64,000 nt of DNA from Geobacteraceae bacterium (GTDB lineage: Bacteria > Desulfobacterota > Desulfuromonadia > Geobacterales > Geobacteraceae). The notes below the pieces were generated by a model. That model had not been told where the DNA came from. It was given only the letters and a program-made list of their open reading frames with translations, and ran no database searches. Below, in pieces: positions 18,577 through 28,273 of the stretch. Numbering within the stretch: position 1 is the stretch's first letter; each line of letters begins with the position of its first letter. The DNA lies in the NCBI GenBank assembly GCA_009773645.1, contig WSYB01000012.1, positions 1 through 64,000 of the forward strand, read 5' to 3'. The translations under genes and the position numbers were made by a program.

Positions 18577-18975
18577 TCATACCCAGATGATCTTAACAAG
18601 ATGCTCCACCTGACGGAATTCCGGATCGCCGGTCACCAGGCCGGCTGAATGCTCCATAGCCGAGGCCAGGGCAAATGCGTCGGCGTAAGAAATGGCGAAG
18701 CGGGCCTTCAATTCGGCAGCACGGAAGATGAGGTCGTTGGGGCAGGGAAGAATGGTAAACCCCATGCGGTGGATATGCGCTAGCATTTCCAGCTTCTTCT
18801 GAACGCCGAAACGTCGCTGGGTAATGTAGACCAGTTCACCGAGGTTGATGGCGTTGATGAGCCGGGGAGTTTCCTCTTTCAGTGTCTGCCGGAGCAAATC
18901 CCTAACCTTCTCTCCGCCCGGCTCTTTCTGGAAGAAGCTTAGCAGCGCGAAGCTGTCGAAGAGCAGCTTATTCAC
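18577..18975 (-). CDS. PIN-domain toxin (VapC-like)
   Basis: A 132-residue PIN-domain protein. Acidic residues expected for the metal site are visible: Asp near the N-terminus (LLFDSFALLSFF), Glu in NLGELVYI, Asp in SYADAFALASA and GDPEF near the end. VapC toxins are Mg-dependent RNases neutralised by a cognate antitoxin. The start overlaps the AbrB-type antitoxin gene by eight bases, the normal antitoxin-first layout. Confidence 0.85.
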   Translation of the reverse strand: MNKLLFDSFALLSFFQKEPGGEKVRDLLRQTLKEETPRLINAINLGELVYITQRRFGVQKKLEMLAHIHRMGFTILPCPNDLIFRAAELKARFAISYADAFALASAMEHSAGLVTGDPEFRQVEHLVKIIWV

Positions 18976-19204
18976 CGGCGAAGTCCTTGCGCCGTTCCTT
19001 CAGCAGCTCCTCCGCCAGAGATGGGCCGGACGGGAGCGCCCCATATGCCGCCTCCACTGCATCTTTCACCACCGGTGCGATGCAAATAAGATCGCCGTAC
19101 TCGAAGATCTGCACCTTCTCACCGGGCTCCAGATGATGCCGTTTCCGCAACTCCGCGGGAATGACCACCTGCCCCTTGGTTGATACTTTGGCGGTATTGT
19201 CCAT
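18968..19204 (-). CDS. AbrB/MazE-type antitoxin
   Basis: A 78-residue protein with the swapped-hairpin SpoVT/AbrB DNA-binding fold: AKVSTKGQVVIPAELRKRHHLEPGEKVQI. The acidic/helical C-terminus (AEELLKERRKDF) is suited to wrapping the PIN toxin encoded next. The ATG at 19204 has a GAGGTG site. Strong inverted repeats just upstream point to autoregulation by the antitoxin/toxin complex. Confidence 0.87.
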   Translation of the reverse strand: MDNTAKVSTKGQVVIPAELRKRHHLEPGEKVQIFEYGDLICIAPVVKDAVEAAYGALPSGPSLAEELLKERRKDFAGE

Positions 19205-19222
19205 GGTCACCTCACAGGTAAT

Positions 19223-19253
19223 ACGTTTTACTTAAAACGTACAACGTTTTGTA
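19223..19253. promoter_or_regulatory. Palindromic operators of the toxin-antitoxin pair
   Basis: ACGTTTTA-ct-TAAAACGT (19223-19240) is a perfect inverted repeat, directly followed by the near palindrome TACAACGTTTTGTA (19240-19253). Both lie 20-50 bases before the antitoxin start and share ACGTTTT, as expected for two AbrB-type binding sites. Confidence 0.6.
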
Positions 19254-19332
19254 AAACAAGTCAAGCAGCCCGTGCAGCAGGAAAAAAGGCGGCGGGAATA
19301 TTTGTTGATACAGGTGAAGAGCCCGGACTGAC

Positions 19333-19629
19333 CTATAGTTTTTCCTTCACGCTGTTGACCTTGTCTTCCATGGTCTGGTTGCGGTCTGTCCGTGTCCCCA
19401 GCTTGATGGTGGTGGTGATGCGCGGCGCCCCCATCCCGTGCACGACCTCATGGCAGCGCCTGATCGCCGCGAACACGGCATCCCACTCCCCTTCGATGTT
19501 GGTCCCGTATGAGTGGAGCGAGGTCTTCAGCCCGGCCTCGGTCAGCACCTTTTCACATGCCGCGACATATTGCGACAACGACACGCCAACGCCTATCGGG
19601 ACGATGCACAAATCCACCAGTACTTTCAT
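19333..19629 (-). CDS. MTH1187/YkoF-type thiamine-binding protein
   Basis: A 98-residue protein of the MTH1187 family (DUF77). Signatures are VDLCIVPIGVGVSLSQYV at the N-terminus, LHSYGTNIEGEWD in the middle and GAPRITTTIKLGTRTD near the end. Family members form beta-alpha-beta dimers and bind thiamine or related pyrimidines. It stands alone between two toxin-antitoxin pairs with no thiamine genes nearby, so its role here is unclear. Confidence 0.82.
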   Translation of the reverse strand: MKVLVDLCIVPIGVGVSLSQYVAACEKVLTEAGLKTSLHSYGTNIEGEWDAVFAAIRRCHEVVHGMGAPRITTTIKLGTRTDRNQTMEDKVNSVKEKL

Positions 19630-19707
19630 TTTGTCGTTTCTCCTTCCGATCTACAACTTGCAGCGCCCTTTAAGGCTTTAGTGGTGGCGCTGAAGCGGGA
19701 CATCCCC

Positions 19708-19983
19708 TCAACTGTATACTTCATCATGGCTACCGATGTCGAGCAGGATGATTTCCTTCTCGGTGATGAGAAGCGTGAGGACAATCCGGTAACTGTAAGT
19801 AAGGCTGACGGCGTGGCAACCGGCGAGTTTGCCGCCCAAGGGGTGGAGCGCAAGGCCCGGTTGGAACGGGTCGTTCTGCAGATCGGCAACTACTGCGGCA
19901 AAGCGTGGTTTGAGATCGGGATGCTTTTTGAAGAATTTGCGGGCCTGGCGCAGGAACTGCTGCGGGGTGGTGATGGTGTACAT
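19708..19983 (-). CDS. RelE/ParE-family toxin
   Basis: A 91-residue protein with the RelE/ParE fold: N-terminal helices (FLRQARKFFKKHPDLKPRF), then HPLGGKLAGCHAVSL, YRIVLTLL and ILLDIGSHDEVYS, the typical end of these toxins. Such proteins cleave mRNA on ribosomes or poison gyrase. It shares one base with the antitoxin stop codon, so the pair is translationally coupled. Confidence 0.83.
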   Translation of the reverse strand: MYTITTPQQFLRQARKFFKKHPDLKPRFAAVVADLQNDPFQPGLALHPLGGKLAGCHAVSLTYSYRIVLTLLITEKEIILLDIGSHDEVYS

Positions 19984-20255
19984 TACGCCGGCTCTTCCGT
20001 GTCGAGCGCTTTCAGCAAGTCATCGGCGGTCTTGAACTTCTTCACCCGACCCGCCTTGACATCCTCCAGCGCAGCTCGGACCCGCGCCAGATATGCCTCG
20101 TTCGCCTCCGCCACAAGCTCCTGGTAGCGTTCCTCCGAAAGTACGACGTACTGAGGCTGGTTGTTCCTGATCACATGGACGTCACCCTTGGCGATGAGAT
20201 CATCTACTGCGGCAATGCCGCGCCGCTTAAGCTCCTGTGCAGGTATGGAGTTCAT
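19983..20255 (-). CDS. Phd/YefM-like antitoxin
   Basis: A 90-residue antitoxin partner of the RelE-like toxin. The N-terminus (IPAQELKRRGIAAVDDLIAK, VIRNNQPQYVVLSEERYQEL) follows the Phd/YefM pattern for DNA binding; the C-terminal KKFKTADDLLKALD would cover the toxin. The ATG at 20255 follows an AAGGAG site. Upstream AGTACTGTTTTAAGTACT (about 20270-20288) is a possible autoregulatory palindrome. Confidence 0.82.
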   Translation of the reverse strand: MNSIPAQELKRRGIAAVDDLIAKGDVHVIRNNQPQYVVLSEERYQELVAEANEAYLARVRAALEDVKAGRVKKFKTADDLLKALDTEEPA

Positions 20256-20317
20256 ATCACTGACTCCTTTTGGTACTGTTTTAAGTACTGAAATCATAAC
20301 AGAGCTGCGTCGGAATT

Positions 20318-20515
20318 TCAACCAGGATCGCGCTGCATTCGTTCATCTTTGCATCTTGGCAGCTGGCAATCCCACGTTTCCTGTAAAAGCAGGATGCCGG
20401 CGGGCGTATCCTCAACAATAAAGCGAGTGCCCGGTTGCCAGTGATGACTTTCCCGGATGGGCTTCGGAATGATGATCTGTCCTTTGCTCGAAAGGAGCGT
20501 CGTTTCCATGGGCAT
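20318..20515 (-). pseudogene. Decayed AbrB-type antitoxin, orphan
   Basis: The frame starts like an AbrB/MazE antitoxin (METTLLSSKGQIIIPKPIRE, HHWQPGTRFIVEDTPAGILLLQE) but after residue 43 changes to an unrelated basic tail and ends. The usual acidic C-terminus and a downstream PIN toxin are missing. It is probably a remnant left after loss of its toxin, though it might still bind DNA. Confidence 0.6.
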
Positions 20516-20593
20516 CCCTCTGTAAGATTTGGTAAGATCAGTATCTCGCCCAGGGTCAACATCTGTCAAGAACTTGCTCAGGAATCTCCTTTT

Positions 20594-23500
20594 TCAGCGC
20601 GGGTCACCGCCGACCATGACGTTGTCCACGGCCCACCAGCCCGTATTTGCGGGAGTCTGCGGGGTGAAGCGGAACCTGACCACGACGTTCGCCTCCCCCT
20701 TGGCCAGGGTCGAGAGGTTTATGGAACCATAGCCAGAGTTGTTTTCTCCCGGATAGATGGGCGTCTTTCGCCACACATTGGTCCAGGGGCCGCTGTAACC
20801 GTTGAGGCTCACATCCACCTCGGCTACGGAGGGCGATGTCATCTTGTAGTTGTAATTGAACAGCAGTTCCGCCGACTGGTAGTTGGACAGGTTGATGATT
20901 GGGGTGAACATCTGGGCATCGATCTTGGTTGCCTCGTCCACCTTGGCGTAGCCGTTGATCATGTTGCCCAGCGCCGAACCGTTGATGCCCGGATAGATGC
21001 CCATCCACCCACCCCCCCCGCTGGGGTAGCTCGAACTGAAGGGGCTGAGCCAGGTACCCGGAAATGCTTGGTTCACCAACCAGCTGAACTGGGCGGACTT
21101 GGCGGTTGTGAAGCTCCAGGTGTAGCTTCTCGGCAGAAAACCGCCGGCGCTGTTTTTCACCCCGGAGGTGAGGGTAACGGTATACGGGTTGTAATAATCC
21201 AGGGACTGGGCCGGTGCAAAGGTCGCGGTCCTGGTGGCCTCATCGTAGCTGACCGTACCCGCCACGGCGGTTGCGCCGTTCATCACCGAAAACGTTCCGC
21301 CCGTGATGGTGTTCCCGTCCATATCCTCCTTGAAGACCACGGTGATCGGCACGGCCGGCTGCACGTTGTTGCTGCCGTCAGGCGGGCTGAAGGACTGGGG
21401 AGTCTGGGCAAAAAGGCTCCAGTTGATGCTCTTTGCCACGTCGGCGTGACAGGAGACGTCTCTGCAGGAACTGCCGCCGGCGTTGTAGGTGTAGGTGAAG
21501 GAGACAATGCCGTCGGCCGCCACGTCGTAGGCGCCGTTTCCGTGCCTGGTCCGGTCGGCGATGGTGGCACCGTCGGTGGTGACGCTGTAGTGGCACACCT
21601 TGCAGGAATAGCCGGTGTGGCCGGAGTGGCCGTGGCCGTTCCCCTTGGGCGAACCGTCGGTGTAGGCAGGCGGACTTTCGTGGCAGCTGGTACAGCCCAG
21701 GGTGAGCCCTCCCCATTTCACGGATTTCGGACCGTTCACCACGCCGGTGGCGACCGACGTTCCATCGCTGTGACAGACGGTCGCATTGCAGGTGCCGCCG
21801 GTACTGTTGAAGGTGTAGTTGAAGTTGTCGAAATAGCCCCCCGCCACATTATACTGGCCATTGGCATGGGTACTACTGTAGCCGTAGTGGCAGCGATTGC
21901 AGGCATACCCCGTATGTCCGCCCTGGTGGCTGTTAGCTTTCAGGGTGCCGTTGCCGTAGCCTGGTGGATTGCCGTGGCAGCCGTCGCAGCCGAGGGAAGC
22001 CCCGCCCCAGGTCACTGGCGCGACGGAGAACGCCGCCCCGGTGGCGACGGTGACCCCGTTACTGTGACAGTAGGCGCTGGCGCAGCTGCCGATACCGCCA
22101 GCCAGGGAGTAGGTGAAGCTGCATTTGCCGGGGGCGGGCGTCACGTTGTACAGGTTGTTCTTGTGCAGAGACGGCGTAGTGATCGAGGCGCCGTTGGTAG
22201 TCACGGAGTAGTGACAATACTGGCAGCCAATGCCGGTTTGCCACAGCTTGACGTGGCTGTTGGCCTTGGGGGAACCGTTGGCGTAGTTGGGTGGGTTGCC
22301 GTGGCAGCTGCTACAGTTGAGGCTGCTCCCCCAGGAAACGGTGACGGTGCTGCGAGAGGTGCCGGTGACCACGGCGGTGCCGTCGCCATGGCAGATCACG
22401 TTGCTGCAATAGCCGCCCCAGCTGTAGCTGAAGCCGGTGCTTGGGGCCGGCATGACATCGTAGGCATTGTTCTGGTGCCTGGCCGGGTCGGCAATGGTGC
22501 TGCCGTCGGTAGTGGTCGCGTAGTGGCATATCTGGCAGCCATAGGAACCATGGTTCCCCGGGTGGCTGTTCCGCTTCGGACTGTAGTTGGCATAGCTGGG
22601 AGGCATGGCGTGGCAGCCGGTGCAGCCGAGGAGCGGACCGCCCCAGCTTGAGGTTGGACCCGACGAGCGCGGGGTGCCGGTGACGAGGACGGTGCCGTCG
22701 CTGTGGCAGGAGGCGTTGCCGCATGTCCCGCCGCTGACGGAAAAGGTATAGGTGAAGGTCGTGCCCGGCGCCGGGGATGGGTTGTAATCGCCATTGGAGT
22801 GGTAATAATAATTGGCAATGGTGGTTCCCGTGGTCGTGGTGGAATAATGGCAGCGATTGCAGCCAAAGGCGGCATGGGAGCCGAGGTGGCTGTTCTTCTT
22901 CGGCGTGCCGTTTGCGTACGCAGGGGGATTCCCGTGGCAGACGCCGCACCCCATGCTCGTTCCCCAGATAGCAGTTATCGGGGAAATCACCCGTGTGCCG
23001 GTGGCTTTCAAGGTGCCGTCGTGATGGCAGGAAACGCTGCTGCAACTGCCGCCGCTGGCTGCAAAGGTGTAGGAGAAGGTGAAGCCGGGGCCGGGGACCA
23101 GGTCGTACTGACGGTTTATGTGGAGTTGCGGATCGGCGATGGTGCTCCCGTCGGTGGTCACGGCGTAATGGCAGCCCGGACAGCCCGCATGGCTGCCGCT
23201 CAGCCAGTGGCCATAGTGGCTGTTGGCCTTGGCCGCATGAGAGCCGCCCTCGTAAATTCCATGACAGTTGCCGCAGCCGGTCAAGGTGGAGTTCCAGGGG
23301 ATGGGCCAGAAGCCGTTTTTGGGAGTCCCGCCGGTGGCGACGGTGGAACCGTCGCTGTGACAGTAGGTCTGGTCGCAGCTGCCGCCACCGGCGGCAAAGG
23401 TATAGGTGAAGGTCGTTGCAGGAGAAGGCGTCACGTCATACTGGGCGTTGCCGTGTTTGGTGCGGTCGGCAATGGAGCTGCCGTCGGCAGTAACCGCATA

Positions 23501-26500
23501 GTGGCAGTACTGGCAACCGTAATAGGTGTGTTTGCCGTGGGCATTCCCCTTGGGTGAAGCCTTGGGGTAGGCCGGGGGCATGCCGTGGCAGCTGGAGCAT
23601 GATTGCGCCGGAGCTCCCCAGGCGAGCGGCGCAATAGTTCCCTGCACCGTGCCGGTGACGACGGCCGTCCCGTCGGAATGGCAGGAGACCGCCGAGCAGC
23701 TACCGCCGGCAGGGTCGTAGCCGTAGCTGAAGCCGACCCCGGTTCCCGGCGCCACGTCGTAGACGCCGTCGCCATGCCTGATCGGATCGGCAATGGTGCT
23801 GCCGTTGCCGACGACGGTGCTGTGGCAGGTCCGACAGTCCTGAACGGCATGGCTTGAGTGACTGTTGGCCTTGGGAGTGCCGTTCCCGTAAGCGGGCGGG
23901 TTTGCATGGCAGTCGGCGCAGGTCATGGCCGGACCGTTCCATGTCACCGGGGCGGAAACCGCCGGCTGTCCGGAGGCAATGGAAGTGCCGGCACTGTGAC
24001 AGTATATGTTGCTGCAGCTGCCGTTGGTGTAGGTCAACCCCCGCTCGTCCGTCAGAACCGTCGGGCCGCCCGTATAGGAGGAAAACCCGGAGTTCAGCGC
24101 CTTGCGTGAACCTGAAGGTGTCGCGGGATTGTAGAGCTCCACCTGCCTTGTTCCGTCATTATCCATTGCCCTGTCGAGGGGGTGGCAGACCCCGCAGTTG
24201 AAGAGATAGCGCTGACTGGTGCTGGCGTTTCCGTAGGCGGCGGCGACTGCGGGGCCGGTGAAATGCCTGCGGTGCGACGGGTCTCCGGGCACGGCGGCAT
24301 GGCAGTTGCCACAGGGGGTTGCCGCCCAGGTGCGCGGGGCACTGCCGGCGGCATGGCAGCTGACACCGGAGCAGCTTCCGCCCGTCGCCGCATAGGAGTA
24401 AGTGAAGCTTATCCCGGGCCCGCCTGCCAGGTCGTAACGGCTGTTGGCGTGGAGGGTCTGGTCGGCGATGGTGGTCCCGTCGCTGGTGGTGCCGTTGTGG
24501 CAGACGCTGCAGGTATTCGCCGCATGGGCCGCATGGCTGTTTGCCTTGGGAGTCGAATCGGGATATGCCGGGGGATAGCCGTGGCAGCCATCGCAGGTGA
24601 TTCCCGAGATTCCCCAGACCGGGCTCGAAATGACCCCGAAAATTGTCCCGGTGGCTACGGAGGTGCCGCTGCTGTGACAGTAGGTATTGGTGCAGCGCCC
24701 CGGCGTGGTGCCCGGGACCTTCCCCCTGAGTCCTGCGTACAGGGCATTTCCAAGGTCTGCGGACCCGTTCTTGAAATAGACGTCCACCAGACCGTTGGCA
24801 TGCTTGATCGGGACCACCATATGATAAAAGCCGCCGTATTGGGGGTATTGCATCGGGGCCGGTTCGATGCCCCGGCTGCCGCTGACCGTGGAGACATGGC
24901 AATAGTCGCAGCCGAATTGGATATGCTTCTGGTGCGAACCGGTGCCCATCGGCCCGGACGAGGCGGCGTCCCCGTTATGGCAGCCGGTGCAGTCGGCGGG
25001 CATGGGCGCACCTCCCCACTGCACGGTCGCCACGTTGGCCGTCTCGAACGGCGCGCTTCCCCTGGTCCCCTGGCTGTGGCAGTAGATGTTCTGGCAGGCG
25101 CCGTAGGGGGTCCCGGGCGTCGCATCGCCGGTGTAGGTCCCGCCGGCACCGAGCGCGGGCCAGGCCGGGGAAAAGACCACATTGATTTCACCGTTGACAT
25201 GTTCGGACCCTCGGGCCGATTGTACCGGGTGGCTGAAATAGCCGCCAATGTGGCACTGCGGGCAGGCTTCATTGGTGCGGCCGAAGTAATGACAGGCATT
25301 ACAGACCTGGCCGGATTCGAACTTCAGGTGTTTGAGATGGCTGCCGGTGGACATCACCTGGGTGTCCCACGGACGGAATCCCCCCTTGTGGCAGCCACTG
25401 CAGTTGGGACCGCTGGAGTAGGATGGGTCGCTTCTTACCGTCGCATAAACCGGCGGATCGGCCGGGTTGGTGACCCCCTGGGCCGAGCTGTGGCAGTATG
25501 TGTTGGTGCAGCTGCCGCCGACAGGGTCGAACGTGTAGGTCAGGGTTTCACCGGGCGGGGCCGTGATATCGTAAGCCTGGTTGACATGCTTCGAGGTGTC
25601 GCCGATGGTGGTGCCGTCATTGGTGGTAGCGTAGTGGCAGCGGCTGCAGCTGAAACCGTACAAATTGTGACGGCCGTGGGGGTTGCTTTTAGGTCCGCCG
25701 TTGCCGTATGCCGGCGGATAACCGTGGCAGGCGGTACATGCCAGCGCTCCACTGCCCCAGTCGGGGGTGCTGCCTGGGGGGATGGTGCCGGTGGCCACGG
25801 CGGTGCCGCTGCTGTGACAGTAGGTGTTGGTGCAGTTTCCGAACTGGTTGCTCTGGCTCTTGGGGAGGTAGTCGTTCAGCTGCCCGGCGTAAGAACCGGC
25901 AGGCGCTCCATCGGGTTTGCGCAGCCCGATGGCGAGTGACCGGCGGCCGGCGCTCGTGGCGTGGATGAACGGGTTTGTTTCCGACAAGTGGTCCGGATGG
26001 CATCGGCTGCAGCCGTTGGCCCCGCCGTAGTACTGATCGTGCTTCCCATGGCTCCCCTCGGCGCCACCATCGGCTCCAAGGGGCGGGGCACCGTGGCAGG
26101 TGCTGCATCCCGCGGGTGCGGTCAGGGAAGGACTTCCCCAGAGGGGGGTTTCCCGCTCGAAGTGACAGTTCACGCTGGCACAGGTACCAGGAACAGCATT
26201 CGGCGTCTGAAGGAAGGCGGAGGTGGTATTCCGGTACCGTCCCTGCAGCGGGGAGGCGTTTATGTTGGATGAAACCTTTATCGAACGGTCCATATGATCC
26301 GGGGTGTATGCTTCACTGCCCGGATGGCACACCGCGCAACTCGATTGGACGGTAGTTTTCGCCATATGGGTACGGTGATTGCCCTGAAAACCGCCTGTTA
26401 CCGGATTTCGGTAGGAGGAATCCACGGGGCGGAAATCGGGGGGCTCTTTACTGCCGTGGCAGTCGTAACACGCCAGTTCGGCGCCGGCAATTCCCGTTGA

Positions 26501-26566
26501 ATACAGTAATATCACCGGAACGATAATGGCAAAACACCGTTTCAGCACAACATGAACTCCGTGCAT
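20594..26566 (-). CDS. Giant multiheme c-type cytochrome, 46 heme-type motifs
   Basis: A 1990-residue exported protein. Residues 1-29 are a signal peptide ending in AGA. By my count the protein holds 31 CXXCH and 15 CX4CH motifs, mostly in repeats of CX4CH, then CXXCHGxPP, then CxxCHY with spacing near 100 residues, matching the Geobacter CxxxxCH...CXXCH repeat family. If all bind heme, it carries up to 46. The C-terminal 280 residues lack hemes: an SbsA-type Ig-like domain (NVQPAVPITVVFKEDMDG to SYTWSFTTAK) and a beta-sandwich ending in WWAVDNVMVGG. The role is probably extracellular or outer-surface electron transfer. There is no porin-cytochrome partner next to it. The start has a GGGGA site; upstream in-frame sequence lacks a signal peptide. 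Confidence 0.92.
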   Translation of the reverse strand: MHGVHVVLKRCFAIIVPVILLYSTGIAGAELACYDCHGSKEPPDFRPVDSSYRNPVTGGFQGNHRTHMAKTTVQSSCAVCHPGSEAYTPDHMDRSIKVSSNINASPLQGRYRNTTSAFLQTPNAVPGTCASVNCHFERETPLWGSPSLTAPAGCSTCHGAPPLGADGGAEGSHGKHDQYYGGANGCSRCHPDHLSETNPFIHATSAGRRSLAIGLRKPDGAPAGSYAGQLNDYLPKSQSNQFGNCTNTYCHSSGTAVATGTIPPGSTPDWGSGALACTACHGYPPAYGNGGPKSNPHGRHNLYGFSCSRCHYATTNDGTTIGDTSKHVNQAYDITAPPGETLTYTFDPVGGSCTNTYCHSSAQGVTNPADPPVYATVRSDPSYSSGPNCSGCHKGGFRPWDTQVMSTGSHLKHLKFESGQVCNACHYFGRTNEACPQCHIGGYFSHPVQSARGSEHVNGEINVVFSPAWPALGAGGTYTGDATPGTPYGACQNIYCHSQGTRGSAPFETANVATVQWGGAPMPADCTGCHNGDAASSGPMGTGSHQKHIQFGCDYCHVSTVSGSRGIEPAPMQYPQYGGFYHMVVPIKHANGLVDVYFKNGSADLGNALYAGLRGKVPGTTPGRCTNTYCHSSGTSVATGTIFGVISSPVWGISGITCDGCHGYPPAYPDSTPKANSHAAHAANTCSVCHNGTTSDGTTIADQTLHANSRYDLAGGPGISFTYSYAATGGSCSGVSCHAAGSAPRTWAATPCGNCHAAVPGDPSHRRHFTGPAVAAAYGNASTSQRYLFNCGVCHPLDRAMDNDGTRQVELYNPATPSGSRKALNSGFSSYTGGPTVLTDERGLTYTNGSCSNIYCHSAGTSIASGQPAVSAPVTWNGPAMTCADCHANPPAYGNGTPKANSHSSHAVQDCRTCHSTVVGNGSTIADPIRHGDGVYDVAPGTGVGFSYGYDPAGGSCSAVSCHSDGTAVVTGTVQGTIAPLAWGAPAQSCSSCHGMPPAYPKASPKGNAHGKHTYYGCQYCHYAVTADGSSIADRTKHGNAQYDVTPSPATTFTYTFAAGGGSCDQTYCHSDGSTVATGGTPKNGFWPIPWNSTLTGCGNCHGIYEGGSHAAKANSHYGHWLSGSHAGCPGCHYAVTTDGSTIADPQLHINRQYDLVPGPGFTFSYTFAASGGSCSSVSCHHDGTLKATGTRVISPITAIWGTSMGCGVCHGNPPAYANGTPKKNSHLGSHAAFGCNRCHYSTTTTGTTIANYYYHSNGDYNPSPAPGTTFTYTFSVSGGTCGNASCHSDGTVLVTGTPRSSGPTSSWGGPLLGCTGCHAMPPSYANYSPKRNSHPGNHGSYGCQICHYATTTDGSTIADPARHQNNAYDVMPAPSTGFSYSWGGYCSNVICHGDGTAVVTGTSRSTVTVSWGSSLNCSSCHGNPPNYANGSPKANSHVKLWQTGIGCQYCHYSVTTNGASITTPSLHKNNLYNVTPAPGKCSFTYSLAGGIGSCASAYCHSNGVTVATGAAFSVAPVTWGGASLGCDGCHGNPPGYGNGTLKANSHQGGHTGYACNRCHYGYSSTHANGQYNVAGGYFDNFNYTFNSTGGTCNATVCHSDGTSVATGVVNGPKSVKWGGLTLGCTSCHESPPAYTDGSPKGNGHGHSGHTGYSCKVCHYSVTTDGATIADRTRHGNGAYDVAADGIVSFTYTYNAGGSSCRDVSCHADVAKSINWSLFAQTPQSFSPPDGSNNVQPAVPITVVFKEDMDGNTITGGTFSVMNGATAVAGTVSYDEATRTATFAPAQSLDYYNPYTVTLTSGVKNSAGGFLPRSYTWSFTTAKSAQFSWLVNQAFPGTWLSPFSSSYPSGGGGWMGIYPGINGSALGNMINGYAKVDEATKIDAQMFTPIINLSNYQSAELLFNYNYKMTSPSVAEVDVSLNGYSGPWTNVWRKTPIYPGENNSGYGSINLSTLAKGEANVVVRFRFTPQTPANTGWWAVDNVMVGGDPR

Positions 26567-26695
26567 CGAATTCCCCTTTATGGATAACACTCGGCCAGTA
26601 GCAGGTTCAGCCACTGAGAGCAAATTAAACTGCAAAAATTCATTAGATTTTTTGCAAGGTTCGTTCCTAAGATGCAGCAGAGTTATTCCGGCAAT

Positions 26696-28053
26696 TTACC
26701 CCCTCACATACTCCAAAGCCCGCCGGAGGCGCTTCCGGGTCTCCTCCTTCCCCAGCGCCTCGATCACCTCGTATATGCCGGGGGAGGCAGTCCCGCCGGC
26801 CAGGGCCACCCGCACCGCCGGGCCGATCTGCCCCAGCTTGATCCCCTTCTCGGCGCAGAGCTCCTTGAACACCCCCTCGATTCCCTGCTGGGTAAAGTCC
26901 GCCAAAGCCTCCAGCTTCTCCAGAAGCGCCTCGAAGAGGGGCGCCACCTCGGGCTTCAGGAACTTCGCGGCGGCCTCCTCATCGTACGCGACGGCACTGC
27001 GGTAATAGAACAGGGCTCCGTCGGCCATCTCCACCATAGTCCTGGCCCGCTCCTGGAGGGTCTTCACCACCACAGCCAGTTCCGGTCCCTGCGAGATGTC
27101 GCCCCCCCTCTCTGCCATGAACGGGATCAGGAGGTCTGCCAGCCTATGGGGATCGCCGGTCTTTATGTAGTGGGCATTCAGCCAGAGGAGCTTGTCCGGG
27201 TTGAAGACGCCGGCGGAGCGGCCGACGTGCTCGATGGAGAACTTCTCGATCCGAGCCGCACCAGGTAATTAACCATCGCCTCGGGGAGAAAACCCATGTC
27301 GCGGTAGGCCATGACGCTGGTAGCGCCGTGGCGCTTGGAGAGCCGGGCCTTGTCGGCCCCGAGGATCATCGGCACATGGGCGAACCTGGGAACCGGATAG
27401 CCGAGCGCCTCGTAGAGGAGTATCTGACGGGGAGTATTGTTGACATGGTCATCGCCGCGGATGACCGTGGTGATCCCCATGGTGGCGTCGTCGATCACCA
27501 CCGTGAAGTTGTAGGTGGGGGTGCCGTCGGAACGCTGGATGATCAGGTCGTCCAGCTCCTCGTTGCTGAATGAGATGCGCCCCTTGATCAGGTCGTCGAA
27601 GGCGGTGACCCCTTCGTGGGGGGCCTTGAAGCGGACAGCAGAGGGCTTGCCGGGGATATCCGCGGTGAGCCTGCGGCAGGTGCCGTCGTATTTCGGTTTG
27701 CGCCCCTCCTTCATTGCCAGGTCCCGCTTTGCCTCCAGCTCCTCTGGAGTGCAGTAGCATTTATAGGCCTTGCCCGCGTCGAGGAGTTTCTGCACAAACT
27801 CCCTGTAAACCGGAAACCGCTCCGACTGGTAATACGGCCCCTCGTCCCAGTCGAGGCCGAGCCATGTCATCCCTTCCAGAATGGCATTGAGGGATTCCTC
27901 GGTGGAACGGGCCACATCGGTATCCTCGATGCGCAGGATGAACTTTCCCTGTTCCTTTCTGGCCAAAAGCCAGTTAAAGAGGGCCGTGCGGGCGCCTCCC
28001 ACATGGAGGTAACCGGTCGGGCTCGGGGCGAAACGGAGACGGACTTCGGACAT
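26696..28053 (-). pseudogene. gltX: Glutamyl-tRNA synthetase, disrupted by deletion/frameshift
   Basis: The first part (28053 to about 27251) encodes the class I catalytic domain with [12 protein letters not shown] (HIGH-type) and LSKRHG (KMSKS-type). At 27250/27251 the frame breaks after NYLVRLG: the following codons for [20 protein letters not shown] and the anticodon-binding region to 26696 are in another frame. About 14 residues that relatives have here (WSHGDQE...) are missing, so roughly 43 bases are deleted. Downstream sequence is otherwise intact to a normal stop. GluRS is essential, and no other copy is in the window, so either a second gltX exists elsewhere or this is an assembly error. 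The start has an AAGGAG site. Confidence 0.85.
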
Positions 28054-28087
28054 GGGATTCTCCTTCAGATAAATTGCAACATTACGT

Positions 28088-28273
28088 TTATTCTTCTTCC
28101 TCTTCCTCGGCAGGCTTCTTCTCGCCTGGAATGCGGTACTTCTCATCAGCCCATGCGCCGAGATCGATCATCTTGCACCGTTCGGAACAGAAGGGGCGGA
28201 AGGGGTTCCCTTCCCATGCGGCTTCTTTGCGGCAATGGGGACACTTTATACTTTTCAATCGGGTTGCAGTCAT
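28088..28273 (-). CDS. yacG: YacG-like zinc-binding protein
   Basis: A 61-residue protein with the YacG signature: CPHCRKEA, then [17 protein letters not shown] and KYRIPGE. The four cysteines bind zinc. In E. coli YacG binds GyrB and inhibits gyrase. The poly-glutamate tail (EEEEEE) is common in acidic C-termini of this family. It lies 34 bases upstream of gltX on the same strand. Confidence 0.88.

Follow-up and report, generated by a model that had tools for sequence, protein, structure and literature searches.

A large gene for a c-type cytochrome was identified on the minus strand of the window, the term used here for the whole stretch of 64,000 nucleotides of Geobacteraceae DNA that was analysed (Table 1). 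The gene lies within a minus-strand frame (20594-26635) of 2013 codons without a stop, counted from a TTG at position 26635, and residue numbers for the cytochrome refer to this frame. The start codon is likely to be the ATG at 26566, as it is preceded by a Shine-Dalgarno-like sequence, and the limits given to the gene by the first-pass annotation (20594-26566) are thus considered right. Assignment as a c-type cytochrome is based on the presence of 46 Cys-Cys-His heme motifs together with an export signal that was read by eye only, with export through this Sec signal peptide being probable. A search against Rfam gave no match.

Table 1. Positions of the cytochrome gene and its parts on the window
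Feature	Position	Strand	Basis
Whole gene, c-type cytochrome, 1990 aa, 31 CXXCH and 15 CX4CH	20594..26566	-	ORF, motif count, TIGR01904
Shine-Dalgarno-like AGGGGA, five bases upstream of the ATG	26572..26577	-	read from sequence
Probable Sec signal peptide, 29 aa, ending GIAGA, without lipobox	26480..26566	-	read by eye
Array of 15 units, CXXCH-HxxH-CXXCH-H-CX4CH	21446..26470	-	motif scan, unit HMM
Units 1-7, head part of the array	23996..26470	-	unit comparison with relatives
Units 8-15, mutually similar, number variable among relatives	21446..23995	-	unit comparison
Extra CXXCH, aa 458-462, in unit 4	25250..25264	-	motif scan; doubled CXXCH likewise in the corresponding unit of relatives
Big_5 bacterial Ig-like domain, aa 1747-1844, no Cys or His	21104..21397	-	PF13205, E 2e-17
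Predicted C-terminal beta-sandwich, cleaved-adhesin/MAM/Reelin-like	20597..21088	-	AF2 pLDDT 88, Foldseek, profile

The gene is flanked by gltX upstream and by toxin-antitoxin genes downstream. No porin, periplasmic cytochrome or secretion gene was found to be adjacent, as the first-pass annotation had correctly stated for a porin or periplasmic partner, and no other ORF of the window carries three or more heme motifs. The adjacent porin and periplasmic cytochrome that characterize a porin-cytochrome conduit of the Mtr/Omb type are thus absent here. The gltX gene (26696-28146, minus strand) is itself interrupted near 27247, where roughly 14 codons are seemingly missing and the frame shifts, which can be either an assembly error or a real deletion; the only other strong GltX-like match in the genome consists of the N-terminal part alone. 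The genes directly downstream of the cytochrome (18577-20569, minus strand) encode a MazE-like protein with a PIN protein, a Phd/YefM-like protein with a YafQ-like protein, and a lone MazE-like antitoxin.

Repeat units and family membership

Scanning of the whole frame identified exactly 31 CXXCH and 15 CX4CH motifs, as originally counted, and no other CXnCH motif with n from 0 to 11. Composition alone would be expected to yield 0.21 CXXCH and 0.21 CX4CH by chance, and never more than three were obtained in 2000 shuffles. All but two of the 94 cysteines belong to motifs, the exceptions being a signal-peptide cysteine and one at aa 1505. Between the signal peptide and the final motif there are 50 histidines that are not part of a motif, while the 278-aa tail has none. 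Three heme motifs make up each unit along with three conserved histidines outside the motifs. Their order recurs 15 times over the full span of the motifs with minor departures, and successive CX4CH motifs (n=15) lie 98-138 residues apart, in agreement with the regular placement reported earlier.

Counted from the ends of the protein itself, the array consists of CXXCH-CXXCH-CX4CH fifteen times with one extra CXXCH. The order CX4CH-CXXCH-CXXCH proposed in the first-pass annotation is the same repeat in another phase. A CXXCH follows CX4CH in 14 of 15 cases, with the motif histidines 18-34 residues apart, and none follows the last CX4CH. Two of the 13 complete units of the window protein possess only two non-motif histidines, and one heme in each of these may have another ligand.

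Comparison with family models showed that the cytochrome belongs to TIGR01904/PF09698, the Geobacter CX4CH...CXXCH cytochromes. The NCBIfam model TIGR01904 matched 15 stretches over the array (E 4e-109, 356 bits against a cut-off of 27), and the Pfam model PF09698 (GSu_C4xC__C2xCH) matched 12 stretches (114 bits against a cut-off of 21.7). Cytochrome c7 (PF14522) was also matched in 8 stretches (E 5.5e-30), part of which may be driven by the heme motifs alone. The same genome contains 82 TIGR01904 stretches. It also encodes a larger cytochrome (L077 1980-9677, plus strand) of 2566 aa with 46 CXXCH and 9 CX4CH, amounting to 55 motifs, while one relative has a protein of 2202 aa with 37 CXXCH and 19 CX4CH, amounting to 56. 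The earlier suggestion that few proteins carry this many motifs did not hold up in this comparison, and the window cytochrome, although large, is neither unique nor exceptional within its known family. Overall, the original observation is real and mostly explained, the protein being a large, intact family member with an unusual tail.

Read from HxxH, the order of the unit resembles that of triheme c7. For three units (aa 1001-1321), AF2 gave a model with a pLDDT of 77 and a pTM of 0.69 from a 64-row alignment, Foldseek of this model against the PDB gave no match below E 8.7, and phmmer with the whole protein against the PDB gave no match. A c7 fold is not claimed for the repeat, given the moderate quality of its model and the absence of a PDB match. 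Matches of the repeat profile to many unrelated multiheme proteins were read as motif matches only.

Comparison of units with those of relatives showed that units 1, 2, 4, 5 and 7 have one-to-one matches to relatives' units where these are present, with units 3 and 6 giving best or near-best matches. The total is 15 units in the window protein and 11 in the proteins of G024 and G027, where the gene lies beside an S1-like gene (labelled by eye) and other cytochromes rather than gltX. Multiheme cytochromes of Geobacter have been described as fast evolving, with many being species-specific (PMC12977616), and the differing context and unit number fit such turnover. It is nonetheless very improbable that the gene is merely a drifting, weakly selected product of this turnover with no special role. 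The reported rate of evolution, the variation of genomic context between genera and the lack of a match in 16 of 38 relatives (at E <= 1e-30, a cutoff that does not prove absence) would suit such an origin, but none of the 46 motifs is disrupted, the frame is open, and conservation of both the head units and the tail extends to other genera and families.

Probable heme at the CX4CH sites

The first-pass annotation held that the regularly placed CX4CH sites carry heme, a claim for which the support obtained is indirect, consisting of spacer variation, histidine stoichiometry and a precedent in MmcA. A unit HMM recovered 294 full units from the window protein and its relatives. The CH at the CX4CH position was kept in 293 of these, a figure that is biased by the seeding of the HMM on CX4CH units. 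The spacer, for which this bias is smaller, was of 4 residues in 277 units, 3 in 12, 2 in three and 11 in one. Both cysteines and the histidine are thus kept while the spacer varies, even to that of a canonical CXXCH, as is expected of a heme site. The three non-motif histidines, whose counts are likewise less subject to the bias, were kept in 283, 280 and 251 of the 294 units. Two loci (L102 3237-7988 and L096 5826-10529) each encode one unit with a much longer CX4CH spacer (11 residues in L102) that retains both cysteines and the histidine; the single unit scored as being without a CX4CH site is the long-spacer version in L096.

Histidine stoichiometry was compared between array units and CXXCH-only runs of the same proteins, a regression of histidines on motifs over whole proteins having been set aside due to its collinearity with length. 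The CXXCH-only runs have 1.27 non-motif histidines per heme motif. Array units have 3.48, which corresponds to 2.75 heme equivalents per unit (95% 2.59-2.89), where empty CX4CH sites would predict two; occupancy of these sites is thereby supported. In MmcA of Methanosarcina acetivorans, all seven motif peptides, including those with CX3CH and CX4CH, were shown by mass spectrometry to carry heme (+615.17 Da) (PMC11024163), and tetraheme cytochrome c3 has two CX4CH motifs (PMC10454114). That the sites instead bind another metal or form disulfides, leaving the protein with around 31 hemes, appears improbable. The two window units lacking a third non-motif histidine would be in keeping with empty sites, but three such histidines are otherwise conserved per unit, the motif changes to CX3CH or CXXCH in relatives, and the MmcA and cytochrome c3 examples argue against it. 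From the spacer variation, the stoichiometry and the MmcA precedent, the CX4CH sites very likely hold heme, and 46 hemes rather than 31 are predicted, which is open to testing. Heme numbers of very large Geobacter cytochromes are often counted by CXXCH alone, and if CX4CH sites are filled such counts would be too low by up to one third, with models of heme spacing and conduction changing in turn.

A promising side lead concerns the heme attachment machinery (system II). Eight or so ResB loci are present in the window genome. Loci were hand-picked from a score list and are not independent. Among them, 12 of 25 loci with a diverged ResB had a CX4CH-array gene at a distance of at most 8 kb, as opposed to none of the 22 loci with a canonical ResB (Fisher p 1.1e-4), and the figures were 12 of 16 and none of 13 when only loci with multiheme genes were counted (p 6e-5). 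The ResB tree contains an eight-row clade (support 100/100), seven members of which lie beside CX4CH-array genes, all on the same strand, at distances of 21-600 bp in six cases and 5.1 kb in one. A ResC-like gene directly follows the diverged ResB in all eight loci checked, and canonical ResB was never within 600 bp of a same-strand CX4CH array in the sample. Loci with a diverged ResB and a ResC-like gene at most 600 bp from a same-strand array are L126 7497-8795, L127 8353-9309, L128 6110-7420 and L129 5483-6403, with further such diverged ResB loci at L138 7266-8621, L140 7294-8613, L144 8008-9324 and L150 7917-9224.

That multiheme cytochromes of Geobacter have ResB-ResC pairs of their own encoded nearby was already suggested in 2009 (PMC2700814), and Wolinella is known to possess heme lyases specific for particular motifs (PMC6976685); the link of ResB to CX4CH specifically appears to be new, as judged from a literature search that was not exhaustive. 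As a tentative possibility, the diverged ResB-ResC proteins beside CX4CH arrays may attach the CX4CH heme and act in trans for arrays like that of the window. A diverged ResB does not seem strictly necessary, since no ResB is adjacent to the window gene and G007 has a CX4CH array with only one canonical and one short ResB found in that genome. Were the link to hold, CX4CH would represent a class of heme site with attachment machinery of its own, one that inventories based on CXXCH miss to the same extent of up to a third.

Heme-free tail and cellular location

The Ig-like domain and beta-sandwich C-terminus described in the first-pass annotation were borne out by the PF13205 match and by an AF2 model of the whole tail (pLDDT 88), in which the last ~165 aa are predicted to form the beta-sandwich. 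The last 168 aa gave no significant match to a Pfam or NCBIfam family. Foldseek with the tail model retrieved the cleaved-adhesin domains K1-K3 of gingipain Kgp, meprin MAM and carbohydrate-binding modules, with TM scores of 0.65 for Kgp K3 and 0.59 for K1 (by target length, E about 1e-5), and a tail profile matched Reelin (1e-5) and Kgp K1 (5e-4). The suggestion that the heme-free tail binds surfaces is therefore plausible, resting on this profile and predicted fold.

The tail domain was found in 12 of the 141 genomes of the order searched. In G024, G027 and G007 its homologs come after cytochrome arrays, while matching head units in G015 end with RCC1 repeats. Another relative has PKD, fn3, SdrD_B and lectin-like domains on its array. 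This variety of tails indicates that the array is joined to interchangeable modules of a surface type. Proteins that by eye resemble secreted proteases of the subtilisin, C10 and M6 types carry the tail domain as well (L106, L107 and L108).

The reading that is on balance favoured is that of an exported TIGR01904 cytochrome with 46 hemes, forming an intramolecular chain at or beyond the outer membrane, with the tail anchoring its distal end. Following export, the protein would take up 46 covalent hemes as 15 triheme units, one of them with a fourth heme, nearly all of which, including the 15 at CX4CH, would have two histidine ligands. At the outer membrane or beyond it, the chain may store electrons and carry them over long distances. 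As no porin is adjacent, these electrons would be supplied by other cytochromes or conduits encoded elsewhere. The Ig and adhesin-like tail may attach the far end of the chain to a partner cell, an electrode, a mineral or a matrix polymer. With 46 hemes in one polypeptide and an adhesin-like terminus, such a protein would amount to a naturally occurring wire that brings its own contact.

The main rival to a chain at the surface is a periplasmic electron reservoir like that of the 12-heme GSU1996, with the tail binding peptidoglycan or an envelope protein. Multidomain triheme cytochromes, among them GSU1996 and the 27-heme GSU2210, are described as periplasmic (PMC10138318), and neither a lipobox, a sorting signal nor a secretion gene was seen for the window cytochrome. 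Against this, the Ig and adhesin-like tail and the surface-type modules on related arrays suit an extracellular place, and large Geobacter relatives are annotated as outer-membrane or surface proteins (PMC10989804). The reservoir is accordingly regarded as rather unlikely, and the outer-surface chain is retained as the preferred reading.

Comparison with known systems

The TIGR01904 model describes one CX4CH...CXXCH stretch, whereas the window protein joins 15 units in one chain with a heme-free tail. Among described proteins it comes closest to the Geobacter cytochromes of the OmcN and OmcO type (annotated with 27-34 hemes), which are likewise very large, rich in heme and described as being on the outer surface; the OmcN-like Gmet_0581 has an Ig-like domain, and a 34-heme cytochrome of G. 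metallireducens with an Ig-like domain is described as surface-located (PMC10989804). This likeness is one of description, and the window protein differs in its 46 sites and additional adhesin-like domain.

GSU1996, a dodecaheme protein of four c7-type triheme domains, resembles the window array in stringing triheme modules together in tandem within one polypeptide to make a heme wire. It differs in being periplasmic with one His-Met heme per domain (PMC10138318), and the repeat model obtained here has no PDB match. MmcA resembles the window protein in mixing CXXCH, CX3CH and CX4CH, with heme at all of the MmcA sites (PMC11024163), but is a relative of octaheme tetrathionate reductase with seven hemes and no tandem array. 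For the tail, the cleaved-adhesin domains of gingipain (K1-K3), MAM and Reelin share the predicted fold of the C-terminal domain at a low identity of roughly 10-20%, and a role in ligand binding is putative for the window protein.
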